Part shown: positions 5,711 through 26,856 of the stretch, one piece after another | Position numbering within the stretch: position 1 is the stretch's first letter | Layout of the letters: each line of letters starts with the position of its first letter | Source: a virus | Direction: 5' to 3' (one strand) | Virus record (IMG/VR): IMGVR_UViG_3300032182_000307 | Coordinates: 1-30,947 of that record | Length of the DNA stretch: 30,947 nucleotides | Program-made: the position numbers and the translations under genes | The notes under the pieces: generated by a model | Told to the model about the DNA's origin: nothing | What the model saw: the letters and a program-made list of their open reading frames with translations, nothing else | Databases searched by the model: none

Positions 5711-5882
5711 CTCCAGAGTCGGCAGGTTCCGGGGTGTTGCCTTCAGCGACCCACTCAAGGTACTCCTGATAGTCGGTATTGTCGGGCGCCATAGGAATTA
5801 GCGCACCATCCTCTTTACGAAGAATGCAAGGTGCTTCTTGGTTGAGCATGGAATCCCAGCACTTTTTATAGGTGTAAGTCAT
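5703..5882 (-). CDS. Small fiber-cassette protein with DYQEYLEWVAEGNTP motif (59 residues)
   Basis: Translating the minus strand from the ATG at 5882 gives 59 residues (MTYTYKKCWDSMLNQEAPCI at the start, DYQEYLEWVAEGNTPEPAD near the end, then SGEE and TAA). The ATG overlaps the fiber stop as ATGA, as in the cassette at 7910. The last 54 bases are nearly identical in DNA to the matching part of the 7530-7913 gene. It lacks the Phage_tail_APC half present there and ends just where that half would begin, so it is either a stand-alone motif protein or a shortened paralog. Confidence 0.8.
   Translation of the reverse strand: MTYTYKKCWDSMLNQEAPCILRKEDGALIPMAPDNTDYQEYLEWVAEGNTPEPADSGEE
5722..5775. 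repeat. 54-base near-identical repeat, copy 1
   Basis: Matches 7753-7806 at 53 of 54 bases by direct comparison (C/T difference at 5763 versus 7794). It encodes the DYQEYLEWVAEGNTPEPA part of two fiber-cassette proteins. A third, more diverged copy lies at about 1615-1660. The identity exceeds what the shared peptide requires. Confidence 0.85.
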
Positions 5883-7516
5883 AATTCTGCTGCAGCTTTT
5901 AAAATACCTGTTTGAGTGCCATTGTACACAGCTATCGCGCGGCCTATGGTAGTACTACCTGTAGCAACAGAAGCGTCAACTTCCACGCTGTCTATCGTCG
6001 GATATAAGACACTAAAACCAGTAAAAGTTCCTACACCATCCCCGTCATACCAATCGAATGAATTACTAGAAGTAATTGTAGGGGCTGCCCGCATTGTTAC
6101 TGGTAAAGTTAAACCTAGCCTGTTAAGAGCAGTGGTGCTACCTCCAACTCCACGCAATCTTGGCTTGCTAAATTGTTGATAATACCTTTGACACCTAGCA
6201 AGCTCATCGCTAATGCTTCTGTGCTCAAACGGTGTCGCCTTTTCACCAAGTTCATACTGAAAGCCAGTAAATTGAATGTAGTTACTGGTAGAACCCATGA
6301 GATTTATTTGATTTGTACTATTGACGCGGGATGCTCCATCAGTATTCCAAGAGGTAGTGTTTTGCCCTGAACTGCTAAAGTTTGATCCAGCGTCCAGCCA
6401 GATCTGAAATTCAATACCAGTAGTATTGTCGTCGTCAATAGCTGTAGCAGTATTGCCAATGAAGGTAATTGTTTTGTATTCCCAAGTATTGACAGACTGG
6501 ATCTCTACACTTCCTGCAAGATAAGGTGGTCCTGTGTTTACTTCTGAAGTTACTGATAAATTACCAGTCATATTTGATTTGACATAAAAAGACAAAGTTG
6601 TAGTCTTTGCGTCAGATGTACCGTAATTTAGATGCTGAAGGTCTTGCCCCTCAATGTTGTATTGAAGAATGTTGAAATTACCGGCGGAAGTCGGGGTACT
6701 AGCAGTTGTAGTTGCAACTTTAATTGATTTATTAAAACCAGCTGGTCCGTCTGATTCTTGCGTAACAGTAAACGCTCCACCCGAATCTTTGCTAAGTCTG
6801 AATCTGTCTACAGTGTAGACTGCGACAGCACCTGTGCCAATAGCAAAAGTTGTACCTCTTTGACTGATTCGACAGTCTCCGTTAATAATAAGATTTCTGC
6901 TACTCAACGCACCAGCAGTTGGGAAAGTTTCCCCGTGAATCGTCGTAGGCTCTAGATCACCATCAAGAGTAATCTTGTCATTACCTGCATCGACGACAAA
7001 TAAGTTTGCTTTTGTATCACCCTCTACACGGAAATCAACATTATCGCCATCTTCATTGAAGACAATTGCAGTAGGTCCAAAATCAGCGATCTTATTGTTG
7101 TTCGAGCTGACAGATGTGATCCCAGTACCGCCTCGGAATAGGCCAGTATCAAGGTCCTGGTTGAAGGTAATCGAGGGCGTGCCGGCATCCCCATCAGGGA
7201 ATGCATGGCCTGCTGTCACATAGTCGGCGCCAGCAAGAATGACACCGAAGAAGGACTGACCGGATGCTGGTGCCGCACTGAAGACGATGTTCGTACCAGT
7301 CAACTGGAAACCGTTAGTGCCTGTTCCATCCGGTTCCTGGATGACACCACCAACAGAAATCAGGCAGTTCTCCGAAGCAATCGGGAAGGGAACTGGTGAG
7401 ACACCACCAACTTGAAGGGCGAACGAAGTCGTAGATCCATCAAAGCTTGAGCTAATATCATCAATGCTTTGATACGTACTCTGAGCGATCTGCGGGCTCT
7501 GGCCGATATATCCCAT
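5879..7516 (-). CDS. Tail fiber / host-range protein, paralog B (longest)
   Basis: A 545-residue fiber. Residues 1-100 carry the attachment domain (GYIGQSPQIAQ, then CLISVGGVIQEP and FFGVILAG) shared with the 165-residue protein next door. Residues 105-195 form a linker with TPSITFNQDLDTGLFRGGTG and VVDAGNDKITLDGD, typical of cyanophage fiber shafts. Residues about 207-225 hold RNLIINGDCRISQRG, opening the beta-sandwich domain shared with its paralogs. TPFEHRSISDELARCQRYY begins near 428, followed by a 100-residue unique tip that ends AAAEL. The start has only a weak ribosome site, but a TACAAT box lies about 23 bases upstream. Confidence 0.87.
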   Translation of the reverse strand: MGYIGQSPQIAQSTYQSIDDISSSFDGSTTSFALQVGGVSPVPFPIASENCLISVGGVIQEPDGTGTNGFQLTGTNIVFSAAPASGQSFFGVILAGADYVTAGHAFPDGDAGTPSITFNQDLDTGLFRGGTGITSVSSNNNKIADFGPTAIVFNEDGDNVDFRVEGDTKANLFVVDAGNDKITLDGDLEPTTIHGETFPTAGALSSRNLIINGDCRISQRGTTFAIGTGAVAVYTVDRFRLSKDSGGAFTVTQESDGPAGFNKSIKVATTTASTPTSAGNFNILQYNIEGQDLQHLNYGTSDAKTTTLSFYVKSNMTGNLSVTSEVNTGPPYLAGSVEIQSVNTWEYKTITFIGNTATAIDDDNTTGIEFQIWLDAGSNFSSSGQNTTSWNTDGASRVNSTNQINLMGSTSNYIQFTGFQYELGEKATPFEHRSISDELARCQRYYQQFSKPRLRGVGGSTTALNRLGLTLPVTMRAAPTITSSNSFDWYDGDGVGTFTGFSVLYPTIDSVEVDASVATGSTTIGRAIAVYNGTQTGILKAAAEL

Positions 7517-7529
7517 GATGTAGATCTAT

Positions 7530-7913
7530 TTATTCATCTATTGTATTAGGGCCTGACGTAGAAGGCTTACGCGGCCAGACGACTGATTCCGGACCGGTCT
7601 CTGCATAGGTGGTCGGAATGTCGCGAAGGGTCTGACGATAAGCAGCCCATTGAGCCTGATCAACAGTGCAGCCAGGGATCATTGTCCAGTCTGAATCACG
7701 GAGGAGTTCATCACGTTTTAGACGTACATGCTCCCAAGTGTTAGTATCTTCAGCAGGTTCCGGGGTGTTGCCTTCAGCGACCCACTCAAGGTATTCCTGA
7801 TAGTCGCGATTACCCACATCGTATGGAAGCCAAATGATGCTCCCATCATCATTGATTTTTTTGATGACGACAGGATCGCCGCCATAAGGAGGGTTCGCAA
7901 GTTGATAGTTCAT
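7530..7913 (-). CDS. Tail-fiber assembly chaperone (fused EYLEW and APC modules)
   Basis: A 127-residue two-part protein. Residues about 35-55 hold the DYQEYLEWVAEGNTPEPAED module. The rest (RLKRDELLRDSDWTMIPGC, QWAAYRQTLRDIPTTYAE, then VVWPRKP) is a full Phage_tail_APC-type domain: R..RD.LL..DW, AYRQ.LRDIP and WPxxP are the family pattern. Its ATG overlaps the stop of fiber paralog A, which fits co-translation with the fiber it may help to assemble or attach. The other two cassettes carry only one half each, so this is the complete form. Confidence 0.88.
   Translation of the reverse strand: MNYQLANPPYGGDPVVIKKINDDGSIIWLPYDVGNRDYQEYLEWVAEGNTPEPAEDTNTWEHVRLKRDELLRDSDWTMIPGCTVDQAQWAAYRQTLRDIPTTYAETGPESVVWPRKPSTSGPNTIDE
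7753..7806. repeat. 54-base near-identical repeat, copy 2
   Basis: Second copy of the 5722-5775 sequence, one mismatch, same orientation, about 2.03 kb away. The interval between the copies contains all of fiber paralog B. Confidence 0.85.
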
Positions 7914-8992
7914 AGTTCAGCGCTAGCTTCAAGAATAGGTGCACCTGAAATTGAGGCTGCAAATAGTCCACCTGTCATGCCGGTGTCAGCGGTTGTGAGA
8001 TTTGCACCAATTTGGGTTGAAGAAACACTAAATACAGAATTTAACCCAGTTACGTTAACTGCAGCACGGCCAAATTGAGCAACGGTTCCAGGTGAAGATC
8101 TCAGACTACTAGGAGTCGTTGCCGTAGCCCGCTTCTCTACTTTAAAGAAAAAGACAACATCAACATCAGAGGTGTTGACCGTGCGTCCTGTGCAGTTACC
8201 CAATAGCTCGTAATACCTTAGGCACCTAGCAAGCTCATCGCCATAGCTCCTGTGCTCAAACGGTGTCGCGGTGTTACCGACTTCGATTTGGACGCCCGTG
8301 ATTTGCCAAGAAGCGTTTAGGGTTTCATTCAAATTAACGGTAGCTGATGTACCTCTTTTGTAGGTAGAGCCCCACGTCGTTCCTGCAGTGCCGTGATCAT
8401 TGGATCCAGTTCCAAGAGCCATTTGAACACCGAGCCCGATCCCATTAGTTGTGTTCCACGTTCCAGAAGTGTCACCAGGGACAGTGATCGTTTTACGCAC
8501 CCAAGTGCTTACTTCACTGGCTGCAATGGTGTAGGTTGTTAAAAAAGCTCGGTCAACGCCTGCGTTGAAAAAACTAATTGGATAAGTTCCGGTTACGCTT
8601 GACTTTACGTAAAAAGACATAGTAAAGGCTTTAGCGTCTGCCGTCCCAAACCCCATTTGAGCCCAGTTGTAACCCTCAATGCGATGGTCAGCTCCTACGA
8701 ACCGGTCATCACCAGATGATGTTTCAGTAGTTGTGACAGTTGTTTTGAGAGAGTGCTTAAAACCTGCAGGACTATCTGAAACTTGTTGGATAGTCGCAGC
8801 AAGCGTAGACATGTCATGCTTTTCATGAAGGAATCTGTCCACGCTATAAGCGGTTCCAGCTGAGTAAGAAATACTTGATCCACTATTTCTCTGATCTATA
8901 CACATATCACCATTGATAACCAGATTCCGATTACCAAGCTTGTCAGCAACGCTATCACCAAGCCGCTGACCATCGATATCAGTTAATGGCAT
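7910..8992 (-). CDS. Tail fiber / host-range protein, paralog A
   Basis: A 360-residue fiber with a very short N-terminus (PLTDIDGQRLGDSVADKLG), then NRNLVINGDMCIDQRNSGSS near residue 21 and a beta-rich middle. TPFEHRSYGDELARCLRYY lies near residue 243, followed by a unique tip ending EASAEL. The start is fixed by a perfect AAGGAGGT at 9001-9008, 8 bases upstream. It has the same domain plan as paralogs B and C, but the tips differ, which is what one expects of fibers with different receptors. The next gene (assembly chaperone) overlaps by ATGA. Confidence 0.87.
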   Translation of the reverse strand: MPLTDIDGQRLGDSVADKLGNRNLVINGDMCIDQRNSGSSISYSAGTAYSVDRFLHEKHDMSTLAATIQQVSDSPAGFKHSLKTTVTTTETSSGDDRFVGADHRIEGYNWAQMGFGTADAKAFTMSFYVKSSVTGTYPISFFNAGVDRAFLTTYTIAASEVSTWVRKTITVPGDTSGTWNTTNGIGLGVQMALGTGSNDHGTAGTTWGSTYKRGTSATVNLNETLNASWQITGVQIEVGNTATPFEHRSYGDELARCLRYYELLGNCTGRTVNTSDVDVVFFFKVEKRATATTPSSLRSSPGTVAQFGRAAVNVTGLNSVFSVSSTQIGANLTTADTGMTGGLFAASISGAPILEASAEL

Positions 8993-9758: not shown

Positions 9759-11759
9759 CTATCCTAATGCAACTGCAATTGCGGTAGCAAAACTTTCGGT
9801 GGAGATTGTTCCATCGGTATCAGGAACAGTCATAGTTCGGGTATTACTTGTAGTAATGCCTGAACATTCGAAAGCAAGCTTTTTAGAACTGTCGCCGTTA
9901 TCGCTAATTCTGAAACTATCATCAACAAAAGTCCCGCCGGGAATCGTCGAAGCTGAAGTCAATAATGTGCCAGTTTCATCCGGCACTGTGATAGTTCGGT
10001 CGGCTCCTAGTGCTGCTGGTGTGAGCGTAACTGCGCGAGAGCTGGATCCACCCCCACGTCCGTTGATCAGGATTGCGTCTTGCGTTGAAGCCTGCTCAAA
10101 GCGTTGTCCAGTTGTATTTTGAAATGTATTTGACGCCGTGAATGTTTTAGCCCCCGAGATTGTTTCATTAACATCCGTAAGAGAGACTGTTCCTCCAGCA
10201 TTCGGTAATACAATTGTGCGGTTGGCACTCAAAGCTTCAGGTGTAAGGGTCACCGCATAAGAATTACTACCACCACCACGACCATTGATGACAACACCAT
10301 CGTTCGTCGCGGCCTGTTCAAACCTTTGACCGGATGAATTCCTGAATGTATTGTTGCCTGTAAATGTTTGGTCAGTGCCCAGGACAACGATTGTATCGTT
10401 GGCATCCTGAACGGTCAAAGTCCGAGTCGTTGATGTAGTGATTCCACTTAAAGCGAACGCCAACTGCTTCGTGTTGTCCGTGGTATTGCGGACTCTGAAG
10501 CCGCCATCATTCGTGACCACTGCGGTCGACGTCACTGATGTCAAACCAGCAAGGGTCAGTGTGGAAGAACCTAGAGATACAGCACTCGTGCCGATCGTGA
10601 TGGAGCTGTTGCTCAATGACGAGTTCGGAATACTCCCGAGGGCGAATACACCTGTGCTCGAGTTGTAACTGATTCCAGTGGAGCTGGTGACACTGAAATG
10701 AGCACGAACCTCAGCTGCGCTTGGGCCTGTATATGTGATTACACCCGTGCTGCTGTTGTAGCCAAGAGATCCATCGCCCCCAGAATCCGTAACACTGATT
10801 GCACCACGTGCTCTTGCGTCCGTGAAATAAAGATTTCCGCTCTCAGGAACAATGCCGGTATCAAGGGTGTCAGTGGTCGACTGGTTACTGGCATTGCCAA
10901 TGAAGATCTTGCCGTTGTCTAAGTTCGGTGTTGCGTTCGAGCGGCCTGGACCAAGTACAAGAATGCGTCCGTTGCTGTCTACCTTGGTGACCTTGCCGAT
11001 GTTTTGAATCTGGCTGGCCTCACCCGTCGGAGGCGTGGTCGTTAAGTCACCCGCTGTGGTGCTGATATAAACGGTATCACCAGCCGTAAAAGAGCTCGTG
11101 TCATAACCCTGAGCAACACCTGTAGCGATGACAGCACCATTGGCGTTATTGGTGATTTGCTCAGCGACAAGACCAATACAAGGCATTTTGGTCGCATCAT
11201 TGGCGTCTGCAGGAGCCACCAGAGGTCGATTACTGCCTGACGCGTACCCAACGATTGCAACTGGAGTGCCCTTGGCGAGAGTTGACCCCGTTTCATTACG
11301 TACAAGTTCAACTACATTCTCTGCTTCTTTAACTTGATAGGTGTCCCCAAGTGAAACAGTGGTCGTCACACCACGAGCATCTTCGAAATCAATGCTGCTG
11401 TTCGTTAAAGAAGAATTTGGAATACTTGCAAGGGCAAATACACCTGTAGAAGACGTATAAGTGATGCCTGTGGCGCTCGTAGCCGACAGCAAGCCTCTGA
11501 CCACGGCATCTGTGACCTGAGTAAACTCAAATGCACCTGTGGTGGAGTTATAAGTTAAGCTTCCTAATCCAGTTGCAGGACTGGGGCTGACAGTCGAAAG
11601 AGAAATCGAACCGCGAGCCCTTGCTTGAGTAAAGTATTGATTACTAGAACCTTCACTCAGATCATCCGTATCATTTCCGGCAAAATCTAATCCATCAGTC
11701 GGAGTATTGACCTCTTGAAAGAGACCAGATACTAATGCAATTGCCTTTCTAGTTGCCAT
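9759..11759 (-). CDS. Large fiber shaft protein with internal duplications
   Basis: A 666-residue protein, Ser/Thr/Gly-rich and beta-repetitive. Three kinds of duplication can be read: SSTGVFALASIPNSSLTNSS and SSTGVFALGSIPNSSLSNSS; GQRFEQAATNDGVVINGRGG and GQRFEQASTQDAILINGRGG, each followed by TLTPxALxAxRTI(V/T)xP; and LAFALSGITTSTTRTLTV with LAFECSGITTSNTRTMTV. A domain near residues 160-280 (GSTLAKGTPVAIVGYASG, then FTAGDTVYISTTAGDLTTTP) resembles the C-terminal part of the protein at 11764-12291. It is most likely a long trimeric fiber or side-tail-fiber shaft. It ends FATAIAVALG, overlapping nothing, 4 bases before the next start. Confidence 0.82.
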   Translation of the reverse strand: MATRKAIALVSGLFQEVNTPTDGLDFAGNDTDDLSEGSSNQYFTQARARGSISLSTVSPSPATGLGSLTYNSTTGAFEFTQVTDAVVRGLLSATSATGITYTSSTGVFALASIPNSSLTNSSIDFEDARGVTTTVSLGDTYQVKEAENVVELVRNETGSTLAKGTPVAIVGYASGSNRPLVAPADANDATKMPCIGLVAEQITNNANGAVIATGVAQGYDTSSFTAGDTVYISTTAGDLTTTPPTGEASQIQNIGKVTKVDSNGRILVLGPGRSNATPNLDNGKIFIGNASNQSTTDTLDTGIVPESGNLYFTDARARGAISVTDSGGDGSLGYNSSTGVITYTGPSAAEVRAHFSVTSSTGISYNSSTGVFALGSIPNSSLSNSSITIGTSAVSLGSSTLTLAGLTSVTSTAVVTNDGGFRVRNTTDNTKQLAFALSGITTSTTRTLTVQDANDTIVVLGTDQTFTGNNTFRNSSGQRFEQAATNDGVVINGRGGGSNSYAVTLTPEALSANRTIVLPNAGGTVSLTDVNETISGAKTFTASNTFQNTTGQRFEQASTQDAILINGRGGGSSSRAVTLTPAALGADRTITVPDETGTLLTSASTIPGGTFVDDSFRISDNGDSSKKLAFECSGITTSNTRTMTVPDTDGTISTESFATAIAVALG

Positions 11760-11763
11760 AATA

Positions 11764-12291
11764 TTAACTTAATAAGATCGGTGGTTCCAATTGAATGGCA
11801 AACTCTGTAGTTGAAGTGGCTTCACCGACTCTGACTACATAATTACCTGCACCAGTAGGTGCAGTCGTGGTGATCGCTCCTGCGCTTGCGGCAGAGAGGA
11901 AGTAGTGATCACCAGCATCAAGACCCGTCATCGCCTCCACGCCAGTCACCAGGACTTTCACTTCCTCACCTAAAGCTTTGGTTGTGTCTGCAATCCCAAC
12001 TACATAGGCCTTATCAAGAGTGTCGTTTGCAATAGCTTTACCTACCTGTCCGTCGCTCTGACGCATGTACAGAGCGTCACCCTGATCGACTGCTTCAAAA
12101 GTTGTAGCATTAAAGCCGACCCTGAAAGGAATAAAAGTTGGGAAACCGTCTTTAAGATCAATCAGCGCGTCGACGAGGCCACGGTAGTTCGGCGCATAAG
12201 GTGCTCGAGTCATCGTGAAACCATGTCCAGTCATCAGGTCAACAAGTACCTGTAGAGCTCCTTCTATGTTGGGCTCGTAGGCAACTGCCAT
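11764..12291 (-). CDS. Structural protein with DUF2190-like beta domain
   Basis: A 175-residue protein. The N-terminal 60 residues are helical (EGALQVLVDLMTGHGFTMTR, YRGLVDALIDLKDG), perhaps a virion-binding part. Residues about 65-175 (GFNATTFEAVDQGDALYMRQ, AYVVGIADTTKALGEEVKVL, then LDAGDHYFLSAASAGAITTT and a TGAGNYVVRVGEATS end) make a compact beta domain that recalls DUF2190-like decoration proteins and the middle of the neighbouring 666-residue fiber. A possible fiber or capsid accessory. It diverges from the plus-strand gene at 12360 across a perfect inverted repeat. Confidence 0.75.
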   Translation of the reverse strand: MAVAYEPNIEGALQVLVDLMTGHGFTMTRAPYAPNYRGLVDALIDLKDGFPTFIPFRVGFNATTFEAVDQGDALYMRQSDGQVGKAIANDTLDKAYVVGIADTTKALGEEVKVLVTGVEAMTGLDAGDHYFLSAASAGAITTTAPTGAGNYVVRVGEATSTTEFAIQLEPPILLS

Positions 12292-12310
12292 ATGACCGTA
12301 TACTTTTTCA

Positions 12311-12341
12311 TTATTCTAAATTGTTGAACCCTTTAGAATAA
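12311..12341. promoter_or_regulatory. Divergent promoter/operator-like perfect inverted repeat
   Basis: TTATTCTAAA (12311-12320) and TTTAGAATAA (12332-12341) are exact reverse complements around an 11-base spacer. Each arm read outward contains TAGAAT: plus strand 12334-12339, minus strand 12313-12318. They lie 20 and 21 bases from the two divergent starts (12360 GTG and 12291 ATG). The element could be two back-to-back -10 boxes, an operator for a dimeric regulator, or both. No -35 hexamer is convincing on either side. Confidence 0.5.
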
Positions 12342-12359
12342 AGAGAGGGGATTTATACC

Positions 12360-12602
12360 GTGACTCCAGAAATAATTACAGCTGCAATTACTGGAGGTAT
12401 CGGTGCATTTACCGGTCTCTCGCGTGCTCTTAATGGGTTCAGCAAAAAACTAGATCGTCGCTTCGAGAGAATAGAAGACGACATTGATATGCTCCACGAT
12501 CGGCTCGCACGAGAGTACGTATTGAAAGAAGACTTTCTACGCGAGATGGAAGCCGTTCACAATAAACTCGATCGAATTCTCGATCACCTTTTGAAGTCTT
12601 AG
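12360..12602 (+). CDS. Plus-strand 80-residue membrane-tethered coiled-coil protein
   Basis: A GTG start with AGAGAGGGG upstream. The N-terminus (TPEIITAAITGGIGAFTGLS) is a short, glycine-containing hydrophobic helix, followed by a long charged helix (KKLDRRFERIEDDIDMLHDR, LAREYVLKEDFLREMEAV, HNKLDRILDHLLKS) with heptad spacing. Similar small proteins with KLDRRFxxIExDI and REYVLKEDFLREM occur in cyanophages as I recall them, with no known role; an analogy with hemolysin XhlA-type or holin-associated proteins is possible. It is the only internal plus-strand gene. Its TAG overlaps the TAA of the convergent gene at 12599 (TTAG), a 4-base tail-to-tail overlap. Confidence 0.8.
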   Translation: MTPEIITAAITGGIGAFTGLSRALNGFSKKLDRRFERIEDDIDMLHDRLAREYVLKEDFLREMEAVHNKLDRILDHLLKS

Positions 12603-19001: not shown

Positions 19002-19823
19002 TCAGGAATCGCTACCGCCCACTTGAGAGGCGAAGTCCAGGCTGCCAACAATATCCATGAAGGAAGTAGCAGCAGCAGGACGCAGGTAGTTGACGCGGCA
19101 GATGATGTAAGCGGCCTTACCAGCATCCTTATCATCAGAGCTGATGAAGACACCGTCGCCGTCCACGGTGGTGGAGGTCACGCCGTTGACGTTGTACACC
19201 TTGAAGGTGGTGTCAGTGGTGACGCGATACATCATGGCGTTTGCAGCGTCCTGGTCGTCGATACCGGCGGTGGTAACGGCGGTCCAGAAGGGTGCTTCTG
19301 CCACGGAAACGTCGGATTCACCCTGGGCGATGGTGCCTGAGGAGAATGCGGTGGTGATGGCGGTAGCAGCAGCCAGACCGTTGGCCTGGGTAGCGGGGAC
19401 GCCATAGGGAACGCCGCTGTTGTCGGGACCGAACAGCAGGATCTCGGTGTTGGTGCCGTCGATATCTGCAGTCAGAGGAGTAGCAGGATAGGAAGGCTCA
19501 CCAGCGGAGGGGATGTCCTGGCCGATTGCAATCGAAGCGCTGTAGATGTAAGCGGGACGATCAGCGTCAGCTTGGACGACCAGGGAGGTGCGGTCATCGC
19601 GCACACGGTCGCTGGAGCGACGGTCGGGAGAAGGAACCGTCAGGTTGAAGCTCTTGTTGTCAGCTTTGTCAGCGGCCAGGTTGGTCACTTTGACATAACC
19701 AACCATTTCGTAGAGCTCGAAGCCAGGCCAGCCAAAAACACCTTCGGTGTTGTAGGAGGACAGGCGGTTGATTTGATTACCGGGCTGCAGAATAGCGCCC
19801 TTTTCAGCAGTGTAAGATGCCAT
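19002..19823 (-). CDS. Probable abundant structural protein next to capsid
   Basis: A 273-residue protein (ASYTAEKGAILQPGNQINRL, then GVFGWPGFELYEMVGYVKVT), beta-rich and acidic, with no membrane segment. It contains a regular set of strands (RTSLVVQADADRPAYIYSAS, DDKDAGKAAYIICRVNYLRP) and no Lys-rich tail, which fits a capsid decoration or second major shell protein. Its start is fixed by a perfect AAGGAGGT at 19833-19840. Its codon use (C-ending, GC-rich) is like that of the capsid gene and unlike most of the window, so strong expression is likely. It ends the capsid transcription unit, directly before a terminator. No family recognised. Confidence 0.72.
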   Translation of the reverse strand: MASYTAEKGAILQPGNQINRLSSYNTEGVFGWPGFELYEMVGYVKVTNLAADKADNKSFNLTVPSPDRRSSDRVRDDRTSLVVQADADRPAYIYSASIAIGQDIPSAGEPSYPATPLTADIDGTNTEILLFGPDNSGVPYGVPATQANGLAAATAITTAFSSGTIAQGESDVSVAEAPFWTAVTTAGIDDQDAANAMMYRVTTDTTFKVYNVNGVTSTTVDGDGVFISSDDKDAGKAAYIICRVNYLRPAAATSFMDIVGSLDFASQVGGSDS

Positions 19824-19842
19824 TAGTTACGTACCTCCTTTA

Positions 19843-20988
19843 TCACTCAGTAATGGTGAAGGCGGTGGTCACGAAGTCCTTATTCAGGTTCGCGAAACCG
19901 GCGTACAGCTGCCAAATCAGGATGATGAAGCGGCTGAAGTCGTCGTTGTTGTTGATCAGCACCTGAGCGTTCGGGCCGCCGATACCAACACCAACTGCCT
20001 GAGGACCGAAGAACAGGCCAGCAGGAGTGGTACGACCAGCAACCGCGCCGGAACCATCGCCAATGTCAACAGTTGCAGTCTTGCTGGGGAAGTTAGTGGA
20101 CTCGAAGAAGCGCACACCCTCGAACACGAAGCCGGAAGGCATGACGGGCTCACCAGCCACGAACTGAGCCTGGCCATACTGACCACCCTGATACAGAGCA
20201 GCGTTAGGAGCGGTCATACCCATCAGAGGGTTGGGGGCGCCCATGCCAGGATAACGAGCCACTTCGCGGAAGCCCTGGTCAGCACGCAGGTCCTTCATGA
20301 AGGAAGGATCAGCGATACAACGGTAGTAACCGTCTTGGAACACAGGAACGTTGCGCTTACGCAGGCTCTTGACAACGTTCAGGAGGTCAGTCTTGACGTT
20401 GAACTTGAAGCGCTCTGAGGCGTACTCGGTAGCGGTGTATGCACTAACGGTGACACCAGTCTTGGTGTGATCGTTGGGATAGTAGTAACCGCCTTGGGTG
20501 TCGCCGGACTGGCCACGAGACTCAGCCTTGAACAGCTCGTCCAGGAACACACGATCGCGCCAACGACGGTAGTCGTCGAGCAGGGTCAGCGAACCGATGG
20601 ACTGGTGGAACATGTTGAGGTTCCCGGTGTCCAGCAGGAGACGCTGAGCGGTCATCAGGGTCTCGCGAGCAATCTTGAAGGTGCTCGGGAGATTGGTGTT
20701 GTTCGGATCCGCAGGGCCGGTGTACTCACGCAGAGACACAAGCACCTTGTCCTTGACGATCGAACGGCTGTTGGCAGTACCGATCGTTTGGTCTTGGGTA
20801 CGCTCGCGGCTGGTCTTCGTACCGGGGTTACCGAAGAAACGGTAACGATCCAGCTGCACGGTTTGACCAGGCTGCTTTGTGAAGTCGTGGACTACGACGG
20901 GCTCGCAAGCCATCTCCACGACATAAGCCGGGTGGGGGCGGTACAGTTCCGCACCCAACAGCTTGGGAAAGTCGTTATCGATGAACAT
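19843..20988 (-). CDS. Major capsid protein
   Basis: A 381-residue protein: FIDNDFPKLLGAELYRPHPA at the start, then VVHDFTKQPGQTVQLDRYRF, RSIVKDKVLVSLREYTGPAD and STFKIARETLMTAQRLLLDT. These match the plan of N4-gp56/DUF4043-like HK97-fold capsid proteins, with an N-arm, a long spine helix in the middle (ATEYASERFKFNVKTDLLNV, VKSLRKRNVP), then VFQDGYYRCIADPSFMKDLR, a typical peripheral-domain phrase. It is followed by a Gly-rich loop region and AGFANLNKDFVTTAFTITE. Order after portal and scaffold, size, GC-rich codons, its own promoter and leader hairpins all support a highly expressed capsid gene. The family name is from memory. Confidence 0.85.
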   Translation of the reverse strand: MFIDNDFPKLLGAELYRPHPAYVVEMACEPVVVHDFTKQPGQTVQLDRYRFFGNPGTKTSRERTQDQTIGTANSRSIVKDKVLVSLREYTGPADPNNTNLPSTFKIARETLMTAQRLLLDTGNLNMFHQSIGSLTLLDDYRRWRDRVFLDELFKAESRGQSGDTQGGYYYPNDHTKTGVTVSAYTATEYASERFKFNVKTDLLNVVKSLRKRNVPVFQDGYYRCIADPSFMKDLRADQGFREVARYPGMGAPNPLMGMTAPNAALYQGGQYGQAQFVAGEPVMPSGFVFEGVRFFESTNFPSKTATVDIGDGSGAVAGRTTPAGLFFGPQAVGVGIGGPNAQVLINNNDDFSRFIILIWQLYAGFANLNKDFVTTAFTITE

Positions 20989-21024
20989 AATGATTTCTCA
21001 GCTAAGTTTTAAGCGCTGATACTT

Positions 21025-21064
21025 GAGGACAAAAATCCTCTAAATATGGAACTATTCATTCCAT
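21025..21064 (-). promoter_or_regulatory. Two leader hairpins before the capsid gene
   Basis: GAGGA/TCCTC (21025-21029 with 21036-21040, 6-base loop) and ATGGAA/TTCCAT (21046-21051 with 21059-21064, 7-base loop). With a start of transcription near 21066 the second hairpin would sit at the very 5' end of the mRNA, where such stems often protect messages from decay. Neither is followed by a T-run on the minus strand. Confidence 0.5.
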
Positions 21065-21072
21065 TACAAAAA

Positions 21073-21081
21073 ATTATAGCA
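21073..21081 (-). promoter_or_regulatory. Extended -10 promoter of the capsid unit
   Basis: The minus strand reads CATTGCTATAATTTTTTG: TGC plus a perfect TATAAT (21073-21078), the extended -10 form that does not need a -35. TTGATA lies only 9 bases upstream, too close to be a -35. Predicted transcription start near 21066 gives a leader of about 78 bases. Confidence 0.6.
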
Positions 21082-21102
21082 ATGCTTTATCAACTGGGTT
21101 AT

Positions 21103-21363
21103 TTAAGCCTCAGGATTTACGAACTGTCCGTAGCCCAGGTTGTACCCACCGATCATGTTGCCAGGGGAATAAGGACCTGAGTTCACGACACCCATAGGAC
21201 GCATTGGGTTCAGCAATCCGTCAGGGGGCTGAAGAGCAGGATTGGCAGCAGCAATCTCAGGATTGATCGGCGCTTCAGCAGCTGCTTGAGCGGCGGCCAT
21301 CTCGAGCATTGCTTTTGCAGCCATGGCCTTGTCAACGGCCTTCTTAGCTTTACTGTTGTCCAT
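21103..21363 (-). CDS. Small Ala/Pro-rich protein before capsid gene
   Basis: An 86-residue protein: a Lys/Ala-rich helix (NSKAKKAVDKAMAAKAMLEM, then AAAQAAAEAP) followed by a Pro/Gly/Asn-rich probably disordered half (PDGLLNPMRPMGVVNSGPYS, GGYNLGYGQFVNPEA). Its ATG overlaps the previous stop (TAATG). The make-up (helix plus flexible tail, next to capsid and scaffold) could fit an assembly helper or minor capsid protein. No family recognised. Confidence 0.7.
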   Translation of the reverse strand: MDNSKAKKAVDKAMAAKAMLEMAAAQAAAEAPINPEIAAANPALQPPDGLLNPMRPMGVVNSGPYSPGNMIGGYNLGYGQFVNPEA

Positions 21364-21797
21364 TACTTTTTACCCTTGTCATATGATTGGGGGAGAGCAC
21401 CCAGCATCAATTGACCTGTGGGGCGCATGTTTTTCATCAGTTCGTACTGATTACTGGTGTTGATCTGGTTCTGCACCATCTCGGCAGTGCTCAACATCCC
21501 AGGAGCCAGAAGGCCATTGCGGGGAAGAGGTGAGCCAGGGAGATTGAGCTTGAGATAAGAATTATCCAAGTCCCGAGGCATGGGAGGGAGAGGATTATCC
21601 GCTTCACCAATCTTTGGATCGGGGTCCTGTGCACGTGCGAAGGCATACTCATCAATGTTCCCTGCCTGTACCTGACGTGCAGTATCTCCTGCACCAAACT
21701 GAACTAAGCCTGGAGCACCAATAGGTCCGCCTGCAGTACCGATAGCCGCAAGAAAATCATCTGCCCGCTGCCTAGCTCCCGCTTTCTTGTCTTTCAT
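21363..21797 (-). CDS. Hypothetical protein of the capsid unit
   Basis: A 144-residue protein (KDKKAGARQRADDFLAAIGT, then LVQFGAGDTARQVQAGNIDE, YSYLKLNLPGSPLPRNG-like text and MVQNQINTSNQYELMKNMRP). Pro, Gly and Asn rich, few hydrophobic stretches, probably largely disordered apart from short helices. It is the first gene after the terminator at 21801-21829, yet the sequence between has little room for a promoter, so it may be read by leak-through or from an unseen promoter. Function unknown; overlaps the next start. Confidence 0.68.
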   Translation of the reverse strand: MKDKKAGARQRADDFLAAIGTAGGPIGAPGLVQFGAGDTARQVQAGNIDEYAFARAQDPDPKIGEADNPLPPMPRDLDNSYLKLNLPGSPLPRNGLLAPGMLSTAEMVQNQINTSNQYELMKNMRPTGQLMLGALPQSYDKGKK

Positions 21798-21800
21798 AGT

Positions 21801-21829
21801 AAAAAAATAGGGGGCAGTTTCCTACCCCC
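21801..21829 (-). terminator. Strong rho-independent terminator after the scaffold gene
   Basis: Minus strand: GGGGGTAG, loop GAAA, CTGCCCCC, then TATTTTTTT. An 8-bp stem (one G-T wobble) capped by a GNRA-type tetraloop and followed by a T-run is a textbook terminator. It separates the terminase, portal and scaffold genes from the capsid unit. Confidence 0.9.
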
Positions 21830-21855
21830 ATTTTAAACTTAGTTAAGTTTGGAGA

Positions 21856-22866
21856 TCACTCCATCACCAGGAGCTTGTTGCGGAACACCTCAGGGGTCTG
21901 CTGAGCAGAGTTCAGGTAGCGCCAAGCGTTGCTGGGGTCGCGGTCAGCCAGGTTGCCAAAGCTGTTCCAGAAGTCGCCAGCGTTGGCAGGAGCCTGGGGC
22001 TGGGGAGGAACGGGCATCTGGGGACGCTCAGGAGCGACTTGCTGAGGAGCGGCAGGCTGCTGCTGTTGGAACTGTTGACCAACAGTCATGCGAGGGGCCT
22101 GGACTTGCTCATCGGGGATCGGATGAGGACCGTTCTCGCCGAAGAACTCACAGGTGTAGTCAGCAAGGACGTCAGGATCAGTCAGGATGGCCTCATAAGC
22201 TTTGTGCTCATTGGACAATTCCTGGAGAAGCTCACAAGCTTGGACGAGCTGCTGATTGGTTTGAATCAGAGCGTCCTCGACGTCACAGGCGTACTTGTTG
22301 ACGATCGCTGCAGCATCAGGGCCGAAGTGATCAATAACCTCAAGACTTGCTTCGCTTACTCCGTTGGCCCGCAGCTGATCCGGAGTAATCTCCAGAGAAG
22401 TTAGGGAAGAGTCGTTGGAGAATGCCTGGTTGTTGTTGATCGAAGGCGTATAGGTCTGCGCTGCCGGGTTGCTGAACTGGGTTGTTTGTTGGGAACCGTA
22501 GCTGGCCGGGTCGATCGCTGGACTCTGAGTCGATTGTTGACCCAGGGACGGGAATTGGACGGGTGAACTCAGGAGCCCCACCACCCGATTGAACGCCTCC
22601 TTGTAAGGGTTCTCCGCTTGTTGGGGAGCCTGGTACTGCTGGGGGCTGTACTGAGTAGGGGTTGAGACCGGCGCTTGGGCCGTCCCCATCTGGGCCTGCA
22701 TTTGCGGGGCTGGGGCCGTTGCCTGCTGATAAGGCGCCACCCATTGGGAAGTCGTTGAAACCGCCGGTGCCTGCGCTGCCGTCTGGGCCGGAGCCGCGTA
22801 GCTGCTCGGTTGGGTCGGGGATACTTGGGGTGCCGATTGGGTCGGCATTGCGGTATCGGCCTGCAT
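21856..22866 (-). CDS. Probable scaffold/assembly protein, dual-coded 5' half
   Basis: A 336-residue protein between portal and capsid genes. Residues 1-155 are Gln/Pro/Ala-rich and disordered-looking, with one helix (NPYKEAFNRVVGLLSS, about 87-102). Residues 160-245 are helical (EVIDHFGPDAAAIVNKYACD, VEDALIQTNQQLVQACELLQ, ELSNEHKAYEAILTDPDVLA). A Gln/Pro-rich stretch follows, and the end is a conserved-looking FWNSFGNLADRDPSNAWRYL. Helical core, disordered flanks and place are typical of scaffolds. The ATG at 22866 is well supported by AAGAGGTAACTT directly before it, so the 527-base overlap with the portal's 3' end in another frame seems real. Not identified by any specific motif. Confidence 0.75.
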   Translation of the reverse strand: MQADTAMPTQSAPQVSPTQPSSYAAPAQTAAQAPAVSTTSQWVAPYQQATAPAPQMQAQMGTAQAPVSTPTQYSPQQYQAPQQAENPYKEAFNRVVGLLSSPVQFPSLGQQSTQSPAIDPASYGSQQTTQFSNPAAQTYTPSINNNQAFSNDSSLTSLEITPDQLRANGVSEASLEVIDHFGPDAAAIVNKYACDVEDALIQTNQQLVQACELLQELSNEHKAYEAILTDPDVLADYTCEFFGENGPHPIPDEQVQAPRMTVGQQFQQQQPAAPQQVAPERPQMPVPPQPQAPANAGDFWNSFGNLADRDPSNAWRYLNSAQQTPEVFRNKLLVME

Positions 22867-24598
22867 AAGTTACCTCTTTTTGTAGGCTTTCGAGTGTGCG
22901 ATAAAGGAAGGGGGTGAGATCAAGTCTCGGATCCGCAGCCATCGGAAGATTTGGTTGCTGCGGATGTGGTGTCCGCATTTCTTGATTGATTAGATCAATG
23001 AATGCGGAGTAAGCCCTCTGTACTTCCCCTACCACACGGAATGGGAAACCGGAGAGCATGCCCGCGATCTCGTCATCCGTTTTAGAAGGGAATAGATACT
23101 TCAGTGCTTCAATGCTATCAACACCTAACTCTTGCAAGTTTCTGGTGAAGATAGACTGGTTGAGTTTATCCTGTGTTGTGTCTTCATACACAGGACCCAT
23201 CCAGCGCCAAAGGACAGTTCTATCACCATCTGGTGCAAGTCCTAAGACACCTGGAGGAAGCTCCTCCGTTTCGATGGCCTCATCAATAGCTGCTTGAAGT
23301 TTCTGCTCGTATTTAGCTTTCTGTTTATCGTATTTTTCAAGAGCTTTATCGTCTGGATCCTCGGGAAGTTCTGGATACTTGATGTTCTTTGCGTAAGCAA
23401 GAGACTTACGGAAAATCTGCTCTTCTTGGAAGATAATCAGCTCGAGGCACCTACAGATGCCGTAGGTATAAAGCTGAAGACACTTCTTCTTAGCAGTGGC
23501 GCTGACCCGACCATAAGCAGACTTGTACTCAGTCGCGGTGACATTGGTAATGCTGAGGTCATCGATGCCACCCAAGGCAAGGCGAATCTCACTACGCAGT
23601 TGCTCGGCATAACGGGCCTGGTCAGTGCTAACAGCATTCGGTGTGATGAAACCGACGCGATCGGTTGGCTCCAGGTTGGCGATGACCCTGGGGACACGCA
23701 TACCAGAACCAGGCTTCCCGACGTAACCGGGAGATTGACGGGTGATCGGGTCCTGCTTGTATGTCGAACTGGATAAAGAGAACTCAGACTCGAAGCCAGA
23801 TTGGCTTGAGATGCTGGGGCGCTGGCCAGGGGTGTCTTTGTCGTACTCGACGATGTCTTGCTTAGGCCGCGACGACAGCAACGTCGGGTTGCCGAAGAAC
23901 GAGAGGTTGGCGCGGATATTTTTTACCATCTCGTCGTGAGCAACGATCTGGTTCGCCATCCACTCAAACTCACCAGAGCCGTCAGTACCGAAAGCGTCTG
24001 GATTGTTTAGGACCTCAACACAAGGGATGAACTCCATTGTGTTTTTTAAAGTCTTCTTATCAGTAAATGCGTACTCCAGGTCAGGGTTATCGAAGCCGAT
24101 CTCCTGCTCACTGTGCTGCTCTTGAATCTCCGTGGCGGTGATCCTCAGGCGCATGTAACGCTTATCAGTACTCAGGCCGACGCCCTGGAAACCTTTCTTG
24201 GATTTGACCTTATATGGATAGATAATGATGACTTCTTCTAAGTCACCTTCGGGAGAGTAGTAAGTGCGGTAAGAATCGCGATCGAACCAATAAATACGAT
24301 AAGTTTTCTGAGTTGGTCGGATATAGAACAGTCCCTTACCGTAAGCCAGGAAACGATCCCAGATGGAGTCGAGCCGAGCATCAAGCTTGTTGAATTTGAT
24401 GACTTGCTGGACGAAGTCATAGCGCTGTGAACCGAAGTTGTCCTGCTGCGGGTAGAACTCGACACCCTGCCGAATCCCAAACATCTTCATTTGGGACAGG
24501 TGCGCGTTCACCAACATGGTGTCCGCAGGGCCTGTACTGTCGCGAGAGACTACCGACTTAAGGATAGACTCAAGTTGTGATTTAGCACTATCGCCCAT
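22340..24598 (-). CDS. Portal protein
   Basis: A 752-residue protein between the large terminase and the scaffold. The N-terminal part (MFGIRQGVEFYPQQDNFGSQ, RLDSIWDRFLAYGKGLFYIR) and a helical stem-like stretch (QARYAEQLRSEIRLALGGID, TEYKSAYGRVSATAKKKCLQ, LYTYGICRCLELIIFQEEQI) fit podovirus-size portals, as does a crown-side helix pair (QKAKYEQKLQAAIDEAIETE). It forms the dodecameric DNA channel and vertex for packaging. Residues 578-752 are Gly/Pro/Ser-rich and share their DNA with the scaffold start; they end in RSKRSKS. Name rests on place, size and helical pattern more than on a fixed motif. The ribosome site is weak. Confidence 0.82.
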   Translation of the reverse strand: MGDSAKSQLESILKSVVSRDSTGPADTMLVNAHLSQMKMFGIRQGVEFYPQQDNFGSQRYDFVQQVIKFNKLDARLDSIWDRFLAYGKGLFYIRPTQKTYRIYWFDRDSYRTYYSPEGDLEEVIIIYPYKVKSKKGFQGVGLSTDKRYMRLRITATEIQEQHSEQEIGFDNPDLEYAFTDKKTLKNTMEFIPCVEVLNNPDAFGTDGSGEFEWMANQIVAHDEMVKNIRANLSFFGNPTLLSSRPKQDIVEYDKDTPGQRPSISSQSGFESEFSLSSSTYKQDPITRQSPGYVGKPGSGMRVPRVIANLEPTDRVGFITPNAVSTDQARYAEQLRSEIRLALGGIDDLSITNVTATEYKSAYGRVSATAKKKCLQLYTYGICRCLELIIFQEEQIFRKSLAYAKNIKYPELPEDPDDKALEKYDKQKAKYEQKLQAAIDEAIETEELPPGVLGLAPDGDRTVLWRWMGPVYEDTTQDKLNQSIFTRNLQELGVDSIEALKYLFPSKTDDEIAGMLSGFPFRVVGEVQRAYSAFIDLINQEMRTPHPQQPNLPMAADPRLDLTPFLYRTLESLQKEVTYAGRYRNADPIGTPSIPDPTEQLRGSGPDGSAGTGGFNDFPMGGALSAGNGPSPANAGPDGDGPSAGLNPYSVQPPAVPGSPTSGEPLQGGVQSGGGAPEFTRPIPVPGSTIDSESSDRPGQLRFPTNNPVQQPGSADLYAFDQQQPGILQRLFPNFSGDYSGSAAGQRSKRSKS
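22872..22878 (-). promoter_or_regulatory. Ribosome-binding site that fixes the scaffold start
   Basis: AAGAGGT on the minus strand, 5 bases before the ATG at 22866 (AAGAGGTAACTT-ATG). It lies inside the portal reading frame and supports true dual coding rather than a shorter scaffold. Confidence 0.7.
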
Positions 24599-24612
24599 TC
24601 TGTTTGTTAGGT

Positions 24613-24810
24613 CTACTGATCAATATCGTAACCAGCTTCTATACGTTTGAAAGTAATGACTCCGTCCTCAGCTTCAACATCAAAGCGTTCATTGGGTTGA
24701 AGTGAGAGGTCGTGGCACAACTCATCCGGTAGAGGGATGACAGCAGAACCATAAGCATCTTGCTCAAGCTCCACTTCGTAGTAGCTGGGTGACATCGCGT
24801 TTGAATACAT
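24613..24810 (-). CDS. AbrB/MazE-like small protein
   Basis: A 65-residue protein: YEVELEQDAYGSAVIPLPDE, then LCHDLSLQPNERFDVEAEDG and VITFKRI. The strand-P-LPxEL-xxLxLxPxxxxxV-xxDGxIxxKR order is that of swapped-hairpin AbrB/SpoVT/MazE DNA-binding proteins. No toxin gene is next to it, so it is unlikely to be an antitoxin. Lying between large terminase and portal, it may regulate late genes or be a packaging accessory. M1 (24810) and M6 (24795) are both possible starts; neither has a good ribosome site. Confidence 0.72.
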   Translation of the reverse strand: MYSNAMSPSYYEVELEQDAYGSAVIPLPDELCHDLSLQPNERFDVEAEDGVITFKRIEAGYDIDQ

Positions 24811-24823
24811 ATAGTTTAAATCG

Positions 24824-26347
24824 TCAATACTCTAACTCCAATTTGCCTCTAGTCATTAGTCCATTACAAAGCCAGACCAGAGCGTCAACACAGTCATCGT
24901 GAGAGCTAACTCCAAAGTTAACAATCTCATCCTGAAGTGCCTGGAATTTCCTATATTTATTAAAGGTGATCTTCCGCTGTTCGAAGAGACCCATGATGCC
25001 ACGGAAGCGAGCAACCTTGTCTCCACGGAATCCTTTGACCGGATGCCAGTTCACGTTGTAAAGACCGTGTTCACCTTGACAGATACGTTTAAAGTCTGCC
25101 TCCAGTGATGCCTGGTAGGCCACAGCTTCTGACCAAACCTCGATACTGCTACCTGTAGGGAAATATTGATCTTTTTCTTTGTGTACAACACCCCACTCTT
25201 CCATCATCTCCATTAAGGCTTCTAATTTTTCAAGGTTTCCCATGATGCGAAGTCTCTTACAATCAATGATGTGTATCTTCCCTCCCACTCGCCCTCCCAT
25301 CACGAAGACCGTATAGTCGTTTCGTTCTCTGACACCTGCAGAAAGATCGACCCCGATTCCTAAAGTATCGAATTGAGTGGCGATTTCACCTTTGACGATC
25401 AAATCAGGAGAAAGAGAAAGTTCGCTGGTTTGAACGACCTGATTTTGGTACTGGAAAGAAAAAGCGATTGGGGCTTGGCGACGCCGGTCGCGCAAATAAT
25501 CGAGCGACCACATTTCTGGCCAATACGATTGCTCATCTCCGTTCTTGTCTACGGAAATGGCTGATTGGACGATTTGCACCCAGTTGTTGGCTGGAATGAA
25601 CGTGGAGTTATGAATGTCGTCATGGCGGAAGCGGGTGCCAAGACAGATCGCACGACCACCCTCAAACATCGTCGGAACAATAACTGAGTTCCAGTTATCT
25701 TCCATGGCTTGCCGGATATCACGGTTTTTGATGTCATCCGCACTCTTGATGGCGTCATCAATGATGCAAAGGTGTGAACGCTTCGAGGTCACCGCACCCT
25801 TGAGACCTGCACAACAGACCGTGAACTCTTCTTCACCTGCTGTCCGGATCCCGGCGAACTTCCAATCAATACTCCAATATTCATTTGAATTGATTCCCTT
25901 TGCGATCTTAACGGTGGGAAAGATCTCCTTATAAGTCTTACTCTCCTCAATGATCCTCTTGATTGCTGCGCTCTTGGGTCGTGCCACATCAACCGTGTAG
26001 GAGATGTAGAGGATTTTCAAAGGTTTTTTCGCCAATGCATGAACACCAACAGCCCAGGCTGTGTACAAACCTAAGATCGTGGATTTCGCACTACCGCGTG
26101 GCGCCAGGATATCGATATTTGGTCCACCGATACCAATTAGACATTCAGAGTCTTCACCAGTGCAAAGATACTTATGCCATTCCTTATGGTGCGTAGCAGG
26201 GGGCTTATCACCGACTACATCACAAAAATAAGCAAAATCCTTACGTGCACGTTCGATATCAATGTTCGACGTCTTCTTTACAACGCGCTGCTGAGCGGCA
26301 GCTCGTGCTGTGCGTCGATACACACTATAGATACTTGTACCTGCCAT
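24824..26347 (-). CDS. terL: Terminase large subunit
   Basis: The ATPase-nuclease motor that packages DNA into the procapsid. Numbered from an upstream TTG at 26353, the Walker A-like APRGSAKST is at 84-92, Walker B CIIDD at 196-200 and the coupling motif CLGTRF at 237-242. The RNase H-like nuclease shows D336 (GIGVDLS), E409 (VWSEAVAYQ) and D487/D490 (SSHDDCVDAL). About 507 residues is a normal length. I chose the ATG at 26347 over the TTG two codons before it. The gene lies 23 bases after the probable small subunit and 13 bases or so before the AbrB-like gene. All key residues are intact. Confidence 0.96.
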   Translation of the reverse strand: MAGTSIYSVYRRTARAAAQQRVVKKTSNIDIERARKDFAYFCDVVGDKPPATHHKEWHKYLCTGEDSECLIGIGGPNIDILAPRGSAKSTILGLYTAWAVGVHALAKKPLKILYISYTVDVARPKSAAIKRIIEESKTYKEIFPTVKIAKGINSNEYWSIDWKFAGIRTAGEEEFTVCCAGLKGAVTSKRSHLCIIDDAIKSADDIKNRDIRQAMEDNWNSVIVPTMFEGGRAICLGTRFRHDDIHNSTFIPANNWVQIVQSAISVDKNGDEQSYWPEMWSLDYLRDRRRQAPIAFSFQYQNQVVQTSELSLSPDLIVKGEIATQFDTLGIGVDLSAGVRERNDYTVFVMGGRVGGKIHIIDCKRLRIMGNLEKLEALMEMMEEWGVVHKEKDQYFPTGSSIEVWSEAVAYQASLEADFKRICQGEHGLYNVNWHPVKGFRGDKVARFRGIMGLFEQRKITFNKYRKFQALQDEIVNFGVSSHDDCVDALVWLCNGLMTRGKLELEY

Positions 26348-26370
26348 GCACAAAGCATAGCGTAAGGATC

Positions 26371-26856
26371 CTACGATTCTTCTTGCAAAATCTTAGTCCA
26401 GACGCCCATCGAGGCCTCCTGGAGTGGACCTTCAATCGGATCATCACGGAAGATCGTTAACATCTCACGAAGTGCACGATCAGCACCAGCAAGAATCAAA
26501 CCTTGCTTGTCCATCAATACCTTCTCATCATTCAACTGCTTGATCGAACCACGCAGTTCCTTCTGCATCATTGCGATGCGTGATGTACCCATATCTTGCT
26601 TCACCATCCCCATGTCGATCGCATCTCGCAACTTGGAGATGTCCATCGTCATGTGATCAATTTCCATCTCCAGAACAGCAGCAAAATCCCGCTTCTTAAA
26701 GTTCTCCGTAGACCACTCGTCACATTCGACGATTGTTCCGGTGAACCCCAGGAAACGGGCGTACAGATAGATCTGGATGGGTGTTCGGGCTCTTTTGCAA
26801 AAAGCTAGAAAGGATTCACGGTCTTTGTCGGTTAGTTCGTGAATCCAATCAATCAT
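26371..26856 (-). CDS. Probable terminase small subunit
   Basis: A 161-residue, nearly all-helical protein directly upstream of terL. The N-terminal half (LTDKDRESFLAFCKRARTPI, QIYLYARFLGFTGTIVECDE) could hold a helix-turn-helix for DNA recognition. The second half is a long charged helix (AAVLEMEIDHMTMDISKLRD, MMQKELRGSIKQLNDEKVLM) suited to the ring oligomer of small terminases, ending in a short linker (DDPIEGPLQEASMGVWTKIL). The name is from position and fold type, not a fixed motif. It overlaps the preceding repeat-protein gene as ATGA. Confidence 0.7.
   Translation of the reverse strand: MIDWIHELTDKDRESFLAFCKRARTPIQIYLYARFLGFTGTIVECDEWSTENFKKRDFAAVLEMEIDHMTMDISKLRDAIDMGMVKQDMGTSRIAMMQKELRGSIKQLNDEKVLMDKQGLILAGADRALREMLTIFRDDPIEGPLQEASMGVWTKILQEES

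Follow-up and report, generated by a model that had tools for sequence, protein, structure and literature searches.

In phage lambda (C/Nu3) and in the herpesviruses (UL26/UL26.5) the start of the scaffold gene is nested in another head-assembly gene in the same frame; since the nested frames are identical, the scaffold has the sequence of one part of the longer product. The C-terminal crown of known portal proteins faces the capsid interior, and in the P22 portal a C-terminal helical barrel follows the crown. Phages of the phiX174 type are microviruses with ssDNA genomes of a few kilobases, and Synechococcus phage S-EIV1 is a cyanophage from an arctic lake. As described in the available part of one source (PMC8227390), the overlaps of phiX174-type microviruses lie on the same strand in different phase, with both frames functional.

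The locus described here resembles each of these systems in part. It lies in a 30,947-nt stretch of viral DNA, referred to here as the window (positions 1-30,947 of IMG/VR record IMGVR_UViG_3300032182_000307), in which the ORF of a probable scaffold protein starts inside the portal gene. As in lambda and the herpesviruses a scaffold start lies within a head-assembly gene, but here the two genes are out of phase with each other and their products share no sequence. The arrangement shares strand, phase difference and two functional frames with the phiX174 type, but is found in a dsDNA phage lineage; and, as in P22, the portal has a C-terminal extension past the crown, but one that is predicted to lack a fold and is dual coded.

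Gene organization of the portal and probable scaffold locus

All of the window features given here are on the minus strand. The gene order is terminase large subunit (509 aa, 24824–26353; phrog_38, E 2.7e-79), a 65-codon ORF, portal (752 aa, 22340–24598), a 336-aa ORF (21856–22866), two small ORFs, and major capsid protein (381 aa, 19843–20988; phrog_1357, E 1.1e-14). In the phage collection S-EIV1 (KJ410740; L081 in our set) alone is a clear relative, with a 79 kb genome and identities of 53%, 66% and 71% in the portal, terminase and major capsid protein, respectively. With its phrog_20475 portal and S-EIV1-like terminase and capsid genes, the window belongs to the S-EIV1 lineage. According to the available part of one marine survey, the S-EIV1 group makes up 3.3% of cyanophage content (PMC5332604).

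The 752-aa product matches phrog_20475 (E 7e-211) and phrog_64, a portal family (E 0.0005), and its predicted fold supports the assignment as a portal protein: the best Foldseek match is 8v8b (E 3.8e-9), and VIA-align pairs model residues 2–470 (23189–24595, outside the overlap) with the SaPI1 portal 8vd8_A (Z 18.3, 294 residues aligned, rmsd 4.4), a list that barely tests the region beyond residue 473. The 336-aa product is probably the capsid scaffold, as suggested by the location of its gene, after the portal gene and before that of the major capsid protein, an order also present in S-EIV1, and by its helical, partly disordered model. It has no significant PHROG or Pfam match, and the best hit in a PDB profile search has an E value of 0.16. 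Of the original naming of the two genes as portal and scaffold, the portal half is thus borne out by fold, and the scaffold half rests on position and model with no family match.

The two ORFs share 527 nt (22340–22866), encoding portal residues 578–752 with the stop codon and scaffold residues 1–175. Relative to the portal, the scaffold ORF is read in +1 phase (offset 1), and it extends about 160 codons beyond the portal stop. The original prediction of a 527-base overlap with both frames open was right to the base. It also called the length unusual, which holds against a median of 14 nt for viral +1 overlaps in the accessible part of one compilation (PMC8903798), yet annotated overlaps of more than 50 nt are present in 61% of dsDNA virus genomes according to the portion seen of another (PMC7017920). 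In cellular prokaryotes all 715 of 715 co-directional overlaps longer than 60 bp examined were assigned to error categories, as given in the available section of that study (PMC2478687).

Composition and predicted structure set the dual-coded segments apart from the rest of each protein. Gly, Pro and Ser make up 44.0% of portal residues 578–752 compared to 18.9% of the core, and Gln, Pro and Ala make up 44.0% of scaffold residues 1–175 compared to 34.8% of the remainder, in keeping with the biases predicted. The AlphaFold2 models, built from 50-sequence alignments, are weak (mean pLDDT 56.4 for the portal and 49.5 for the scaffold). Portal residues 575–674 and 688–752, which include most of the overlap, have pLDDT below 50 and are mostly without secondary structure. 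The scaffold is likewise mostly below 50 up to residue 159, except for a helix at residues 87–100 (NPYKEAFNRVVGLL; 22567–22608); this is the sole AlphaFold2 helix in residues 1–160 and coincides, at low confidence, with the structured-looking helix foreseen in the scaffold part. Further along, the low-confidence scaffold model has a long helix at 185–229 and C-terminal helices at 296–334. The overlap is thus predicted to encode mostly a disordered N-terminal half of the scaffold and a low-confidence portal tail.

The overlap is likewise present in S-EIV1, where it is 554 nt long and the scaffold ATG, at 59287, is preceded by AAAAGGAGATGAGTT. In the S-EIV1 record the downstream gene is annotated only as its 3' part, from 59863, and the overlap is absent from the annotation; this gene carries a start-site annotation error. 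There is a second annotation error in the same record, where the major capsid homologue, 71% identical, lies at 11323–12447 (+) and the record instead has an opposite-strand ORF at 11248–12009 and a shorter one at 12004–12474. The S-EIV1 terminase (L081:4544-7084) also contains an intein at residues 202–526 (Intein_splicing, E 1.4e-11), and the 509-aa terminase of the window aligns to it in two pieces that flank the intein. Elsewhere in the window three ORFs of the tail-fibre family phrog_4492 (1789–2871, 5879–7516 and 7910–8992) suggest duplicated or alternative fibre genes.

Conservation and selection in both frames

Six scans of IMG/VR and GTDB around five query sequences supplied the relatives, which are a sample of the lineage; four of the lists of relatives comprise the best 80 of 250, of at least 598 (twice), and of 121. 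Among 339 records including the window, a portal match is present in 337, and the C-terminal portal core lies on the expected strand in 327, in 12 of which the contig ends before the portal stop. Removal of exact duplicates (overlap plus 100 nt) left 256 distinct sequences, in groups labelled win, eiv, rho and far; the label rho was taken from the title of a bin and carries no host meaning. Thinning at 98.5% identity gave 51 win, 65 eiv and 41 rho sequences, of which 49, 58 and 39 have a complete scaffold gene.

An overlap of 443–641 nt in one phase is present in 255 of the 256 distinct sequences, the window included, between groups whose portal core identity reaches down to about 46%; an earlier set of relatives had kept it in 231 of 231. 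Homologues with portal-frame stops, which the original prediction had named as the contrary case, are represented by one sequence, L305, with an overlap of 179 nt. This results from the lack of 56 nt that L303 and L304 have, these being otherwise 99.5–100% identical to it there. In a separate contig (L051:6001-8280) the portal frame is interrupted by a stop at codon 113 of the part matched, possibly a sequencing error. Within the overlap, portal residues R601, E677, P683, P685, G686 and D715 and scaffold residues P87 and S171 are identical in 51 of 51 aligned sequences.

An open second frame is by itself a weak argument in the window. When codons were shuffled with the portal amino acids fixed, the scaffold frame stayed open in 555, 10, 37 and 3 of 2000 sequences (window, L081, L166 and L227), and when codons were drawn from core usage, again with the portal fixed, in 630, 4, 28 and 792 of 2000. 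With the scaffold amino acids fixed, the portal frame stayed open in 16, 193, 1 and 265 of 2000. In the window, a stop test on one genome does not convince; what carries the case is comparison among relatives, not the open frame.

Selection was measured in both frames, in the 49 win, 58 eiv and 39 rho sequences with a complete scaffold gene, from parsimony changes on portal-core trees, classed by their effect in each frame and scaled by the mutation spectrum of silent portal-core changes. The method assumes parsimony ancestral states and a single neutral spectrum, that of the portal core, uses only changes that stand alone in both codons, and takes intervals from a codon bootstrap. In the overlap 919, 1303 and 1320 changes were counted in win, eiv and rho, while 553, 711 and 1557 were left out for sharing a codon with another change, so that in rho more overlap changes were dropped than used. 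Purifying selection acts on both frames of the overlap in all three clades. Portal dNN/dSN is 0.266 [0.183–0.375] in win, 0.396 [0.284–0.573] in eiv and 0.373 [0.299–0.459] in rho, and scaffold dNN/dNS is 0.165 [0.112–0.230], 0.193 [0.143–0.259] and 0.291 [0.232–0.366], no upper bound exceeding 0.573. Phantom frames serve as controls, the +1 frame in the portal core giving 1.07, 0.93 and 1.11 and the portal frame past the overlap 1.55, 1.73 and 1.41 (win, eiv and rho). Second measures agree (portal dNS/dSS 0.41, 0.415 and 0.42; scaffold dSN/dSS 0.255, 0.20 and 0.33; phantom controls 0.93–1.53). For the third frame of the overlap, which is unused, dNN/dNS is 4.3, 3.1 and 3.0 yet dSN/dSS is 0.48, 0.475 and 0.33, and we read the latter values as a distortion from the real scaffold frame. 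The silent-site rate of the portal falls from about 0.9–1.4 in most of the core to 0.05–0.43 in the overlap. The sequence check that had been proposed, for purifying selection in each frame with a reduced synonymous rate across the overlap, thus came out in favour of dual coding.

Constraint is partly divided between the frames along the overlap. At scaffold residues 76–100, which hold the predicted helix, the rate of scaffold-only change is 0.09, 0.05 and 0.18 in win, eiv and rho, and the portal is laxer there. The reverse pattern occurs at portal residues 703–727 in win (22418–22492; portal 0.15, scaffold 0.43) and at 709–733 in eiv (0.07 and 0.44), and is weak in rho (0.20 and 0.27). The last 15 portal residues (22343–22387) are basic: across 255 sequences in five groups the mean net charge of a group is +4.7 to +7.2, with a single rho sequence at 0. 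When the scaffold frame is recoded synonymously at random the mean is 1.5 to 2.6, and the share of the null that reaches the observed mean is 0.001–0.046.

These data bear on two simpler readings of the locus. One is that the scaffold really starts near the portal stop, as in the S-EIV1 record (59863–60264, 134 codons with stop, after the portal), the upstream open frame being a by-product of a Gly/Pro/Ser-rich portal tail that would seldom yield +1 stops; the portal-fixed shuffles in which the scaffold frame stays open speak for it. This reading is highly improbable given scaffold-frame values of 0.165–0.29 where phantom controls are near or above 1, the invariant P87 and S171, and a start codon fixed by silent portal choices (see below). 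The other holds that the portal is functional only up to about residue 577, its tail frame being open solely through constraint on the scaffold. The match to solved portals does stop near residue 470, and the tail is modelled at low confidence, mostly without secondary structure; but we consider this reading very doubtful, because the portal frame has dNN/dSN of 0.27–0.40 in the overlap, few scaffold-fixed shuffles leave it open (at most 265 of 2000), six tail residues are invariant, and the C-terminus is basic.

The scaffold start and upstream portal codons

A scaffold ATG with a ribosome site inside the portal frame had been predicted, and the sequence preceding the ATG is indeed AAGAGGTAACTT, with the Shine-Dalgarno motif AAGAGGT at 22872–22878 written in portal codons and kept in relatives. 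An in-frame TAA (22872–22870), 6 nt before the ATG, excludes a scaffold ORF start further upstream. The start is embedded in the conserved portal codons L-Q-K-E-V-T-Y-A, and the codons spanning it are TAT GCA or TAT GCC in every one of the 51 win, 65 eiv and 6 far sequences. The portal Tyr at this position is thus always TAT, although TAC accounts for 44%, 46% and 83% of core Tyr codons in these groups. In rho the codons are AGT GGA in 41 of 41, providing a GTG start, and AGT is 24% of Ser usage. In all four groups tested the scaffold start is held by codon choices that are silent for the portal. Over the eight portal codons that lead up to the start, the silent-site rate is 0.19, 0.27 and 0.28 in the three clades. 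The Shine-Dalgarno-like hexamer is AAAGAG in 48 of 51 win sequences; the other two clades have AAGGAG, eiv in all 65 and rho in 40 of 41. In a wider far set the first start is GTG or TTG in 3 of 66, and the sequences upstream of the start in this set are poorer Shine-Dalgarno matches. A search of 21700–23300 found no sigma-70-like promoter, and terminator-like hairpins after the scaffold gene are within chance (2 found, 1.8 expected).

Conservation and selection on both frames lend strong support to dual coding from an internal scaffold start, and a single message very probably encodes both proteins, the second by internal initiation. Some ribosomes would translate the 752-aa portal; others would initiate at the embedded Shine-Dalgarno and ATG and read the shared 527 nt in the +1 phase to give the 336-aa probable scaffold. 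We infer both the translation of the two products and the scaffold role. As the crown of known portals faces the capsid interior, the portal tail with its basic end and the scaffold N-terminus may both act inside the procapsid, and the disorder predicted for the two tails may make the sharing of one sequence tolerable. The dosage of the two proteins may also be coupled, as had been suggested.

Portal codons 481–577 (22868–23158), immediately upstream of the start, also show suppressed silent change. The observed/expected synonymous ratio is 0.20–0.55 in win and 0.38–0.80 in eiv and is weaker in rho, compared to 0.9–1.4 in most of the remaining core. Codon identity at identical residues is slightly raised across clades at codons 481–520 (18 of 32 for win compared to S-EIV1). 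A third overlapping ORF was rejected, the longest common stop-free stretch in win and eiv being 123 nt and antisense. The suppressed stretch is likely a cis-acting regulatory RNA or DNA element. Separately, portal codons 1–20 (24539–24598) have a silent-site rate of 0.52 in win, a reduction absent from eiv and rho.

The signal for RNA structure in this region is mixed. Folding in the interval −300 to 0 exceeds that of synonymous shuffles in 8 of 8 sequences (z −1.59 to −4.97), with control windows reaching −2.6. Alifold z values within clades (25 sequences each, 40 shuffles) are −2.25, −5.83 and −1.17 for −300 to 0 in win, eiv and rho, −2.48, −2.92 and −2.78 for −150 to 0, and −1.70, −0.83 and −0.06 for −300 to −150. 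Control windows give −0.06 to −0.94, but −2.07 for −600 to −300 in rho. The covariation term gives no clear support for an RNA fold within clades, and a single consensus fold for 30 win and 34 eiv sequences was rejected as weak (−13.7 kcal/mol over 315 columns, with 37 pairs, 10 changed on both sides). Rfam has no match at cut-off in 19500–26500, and one at E 0.76.

The stronger upstream folding, together with the long window of two overlapping frames, could fit a programmed frameshift that fuses portal and scaffold, independent scaffold initiation being minor. This is extremely improbable, because both complete ORFs are conserved and portal-silent codon choices preserve a start codon in four groups, which a fusion would not need. 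On the preferred reading of internal initiation, codons 481–577 could form a conserved cis element running into the scaffold ribosome site, so that about 800 nt would carry three layers (portal, scaffold and element), with element and overlap together setting the portal:scaffold ratio. We regard this as unlikely on balance; if true, assembly control would be written inside the portal gene.

Origin and significance of the overlap

Overprinting, with either tail the newer one, is a plausible origin. No non-overlapping arrangement of the two genes was found among the relatives examined. Two outgroups found through the terminase (MW202796 and MW202426) have portal and downstream genes without profile similarity, and a tblastn search of the phage collection with two distant portals returned S-EIV1 alone.

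The portal tail may be the newer half, loss of the portal stop having extended the portal frame into the scaffold gene, a course we consider a fair possibility though short of probable. The part of the portal that matches solved portals ends well before the tail, and in win the constraint falls more for the portal (0.27 in the overlap, 0.034 in its own non-overlapping part) than for the scaffold (0.165 and 0.094). Against this, the portal frame is the better match to codon usage in all 146 win, eiv and rho sequences (146 of 146) and also in the window, compared to 14 of the other ORFs there. The same codon usage favours a newer scaffold N-terminus, arising from an upstream shift of the start into an existing portal tail, which we can propose only tentatively; the scaffold is the more constrained frame in the overlap, and in the far set codon usage is reversed, favouring the scaffold frame in 6 of 6. 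In the far set most codons for Tyr, Glu and Lys have G or C as their last base, so this reversal suggests that codon usage may only mirror base composition, and as a test of polarity it was rejected, being contradictory between clades.

Overlapping genes are well known, and what is unusual here is the length, the occurrence in a dsDNA phage that has a portal and a terminase, the gene pair, and the depth of conservation. We found no earlier report of this overlap in the literature searched; the S-EIV1 genome paper lies outside it, and prior notice there is possible. An overlap of about 500 nt between two head-assembly genes, portal and probable scaffold, has been kept in this lineage with both frames constrained. 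It provides a natural system for the study of one sequence serving two proteins, in which the balance of portal and scaffold is open to testing through portal-silent changes.
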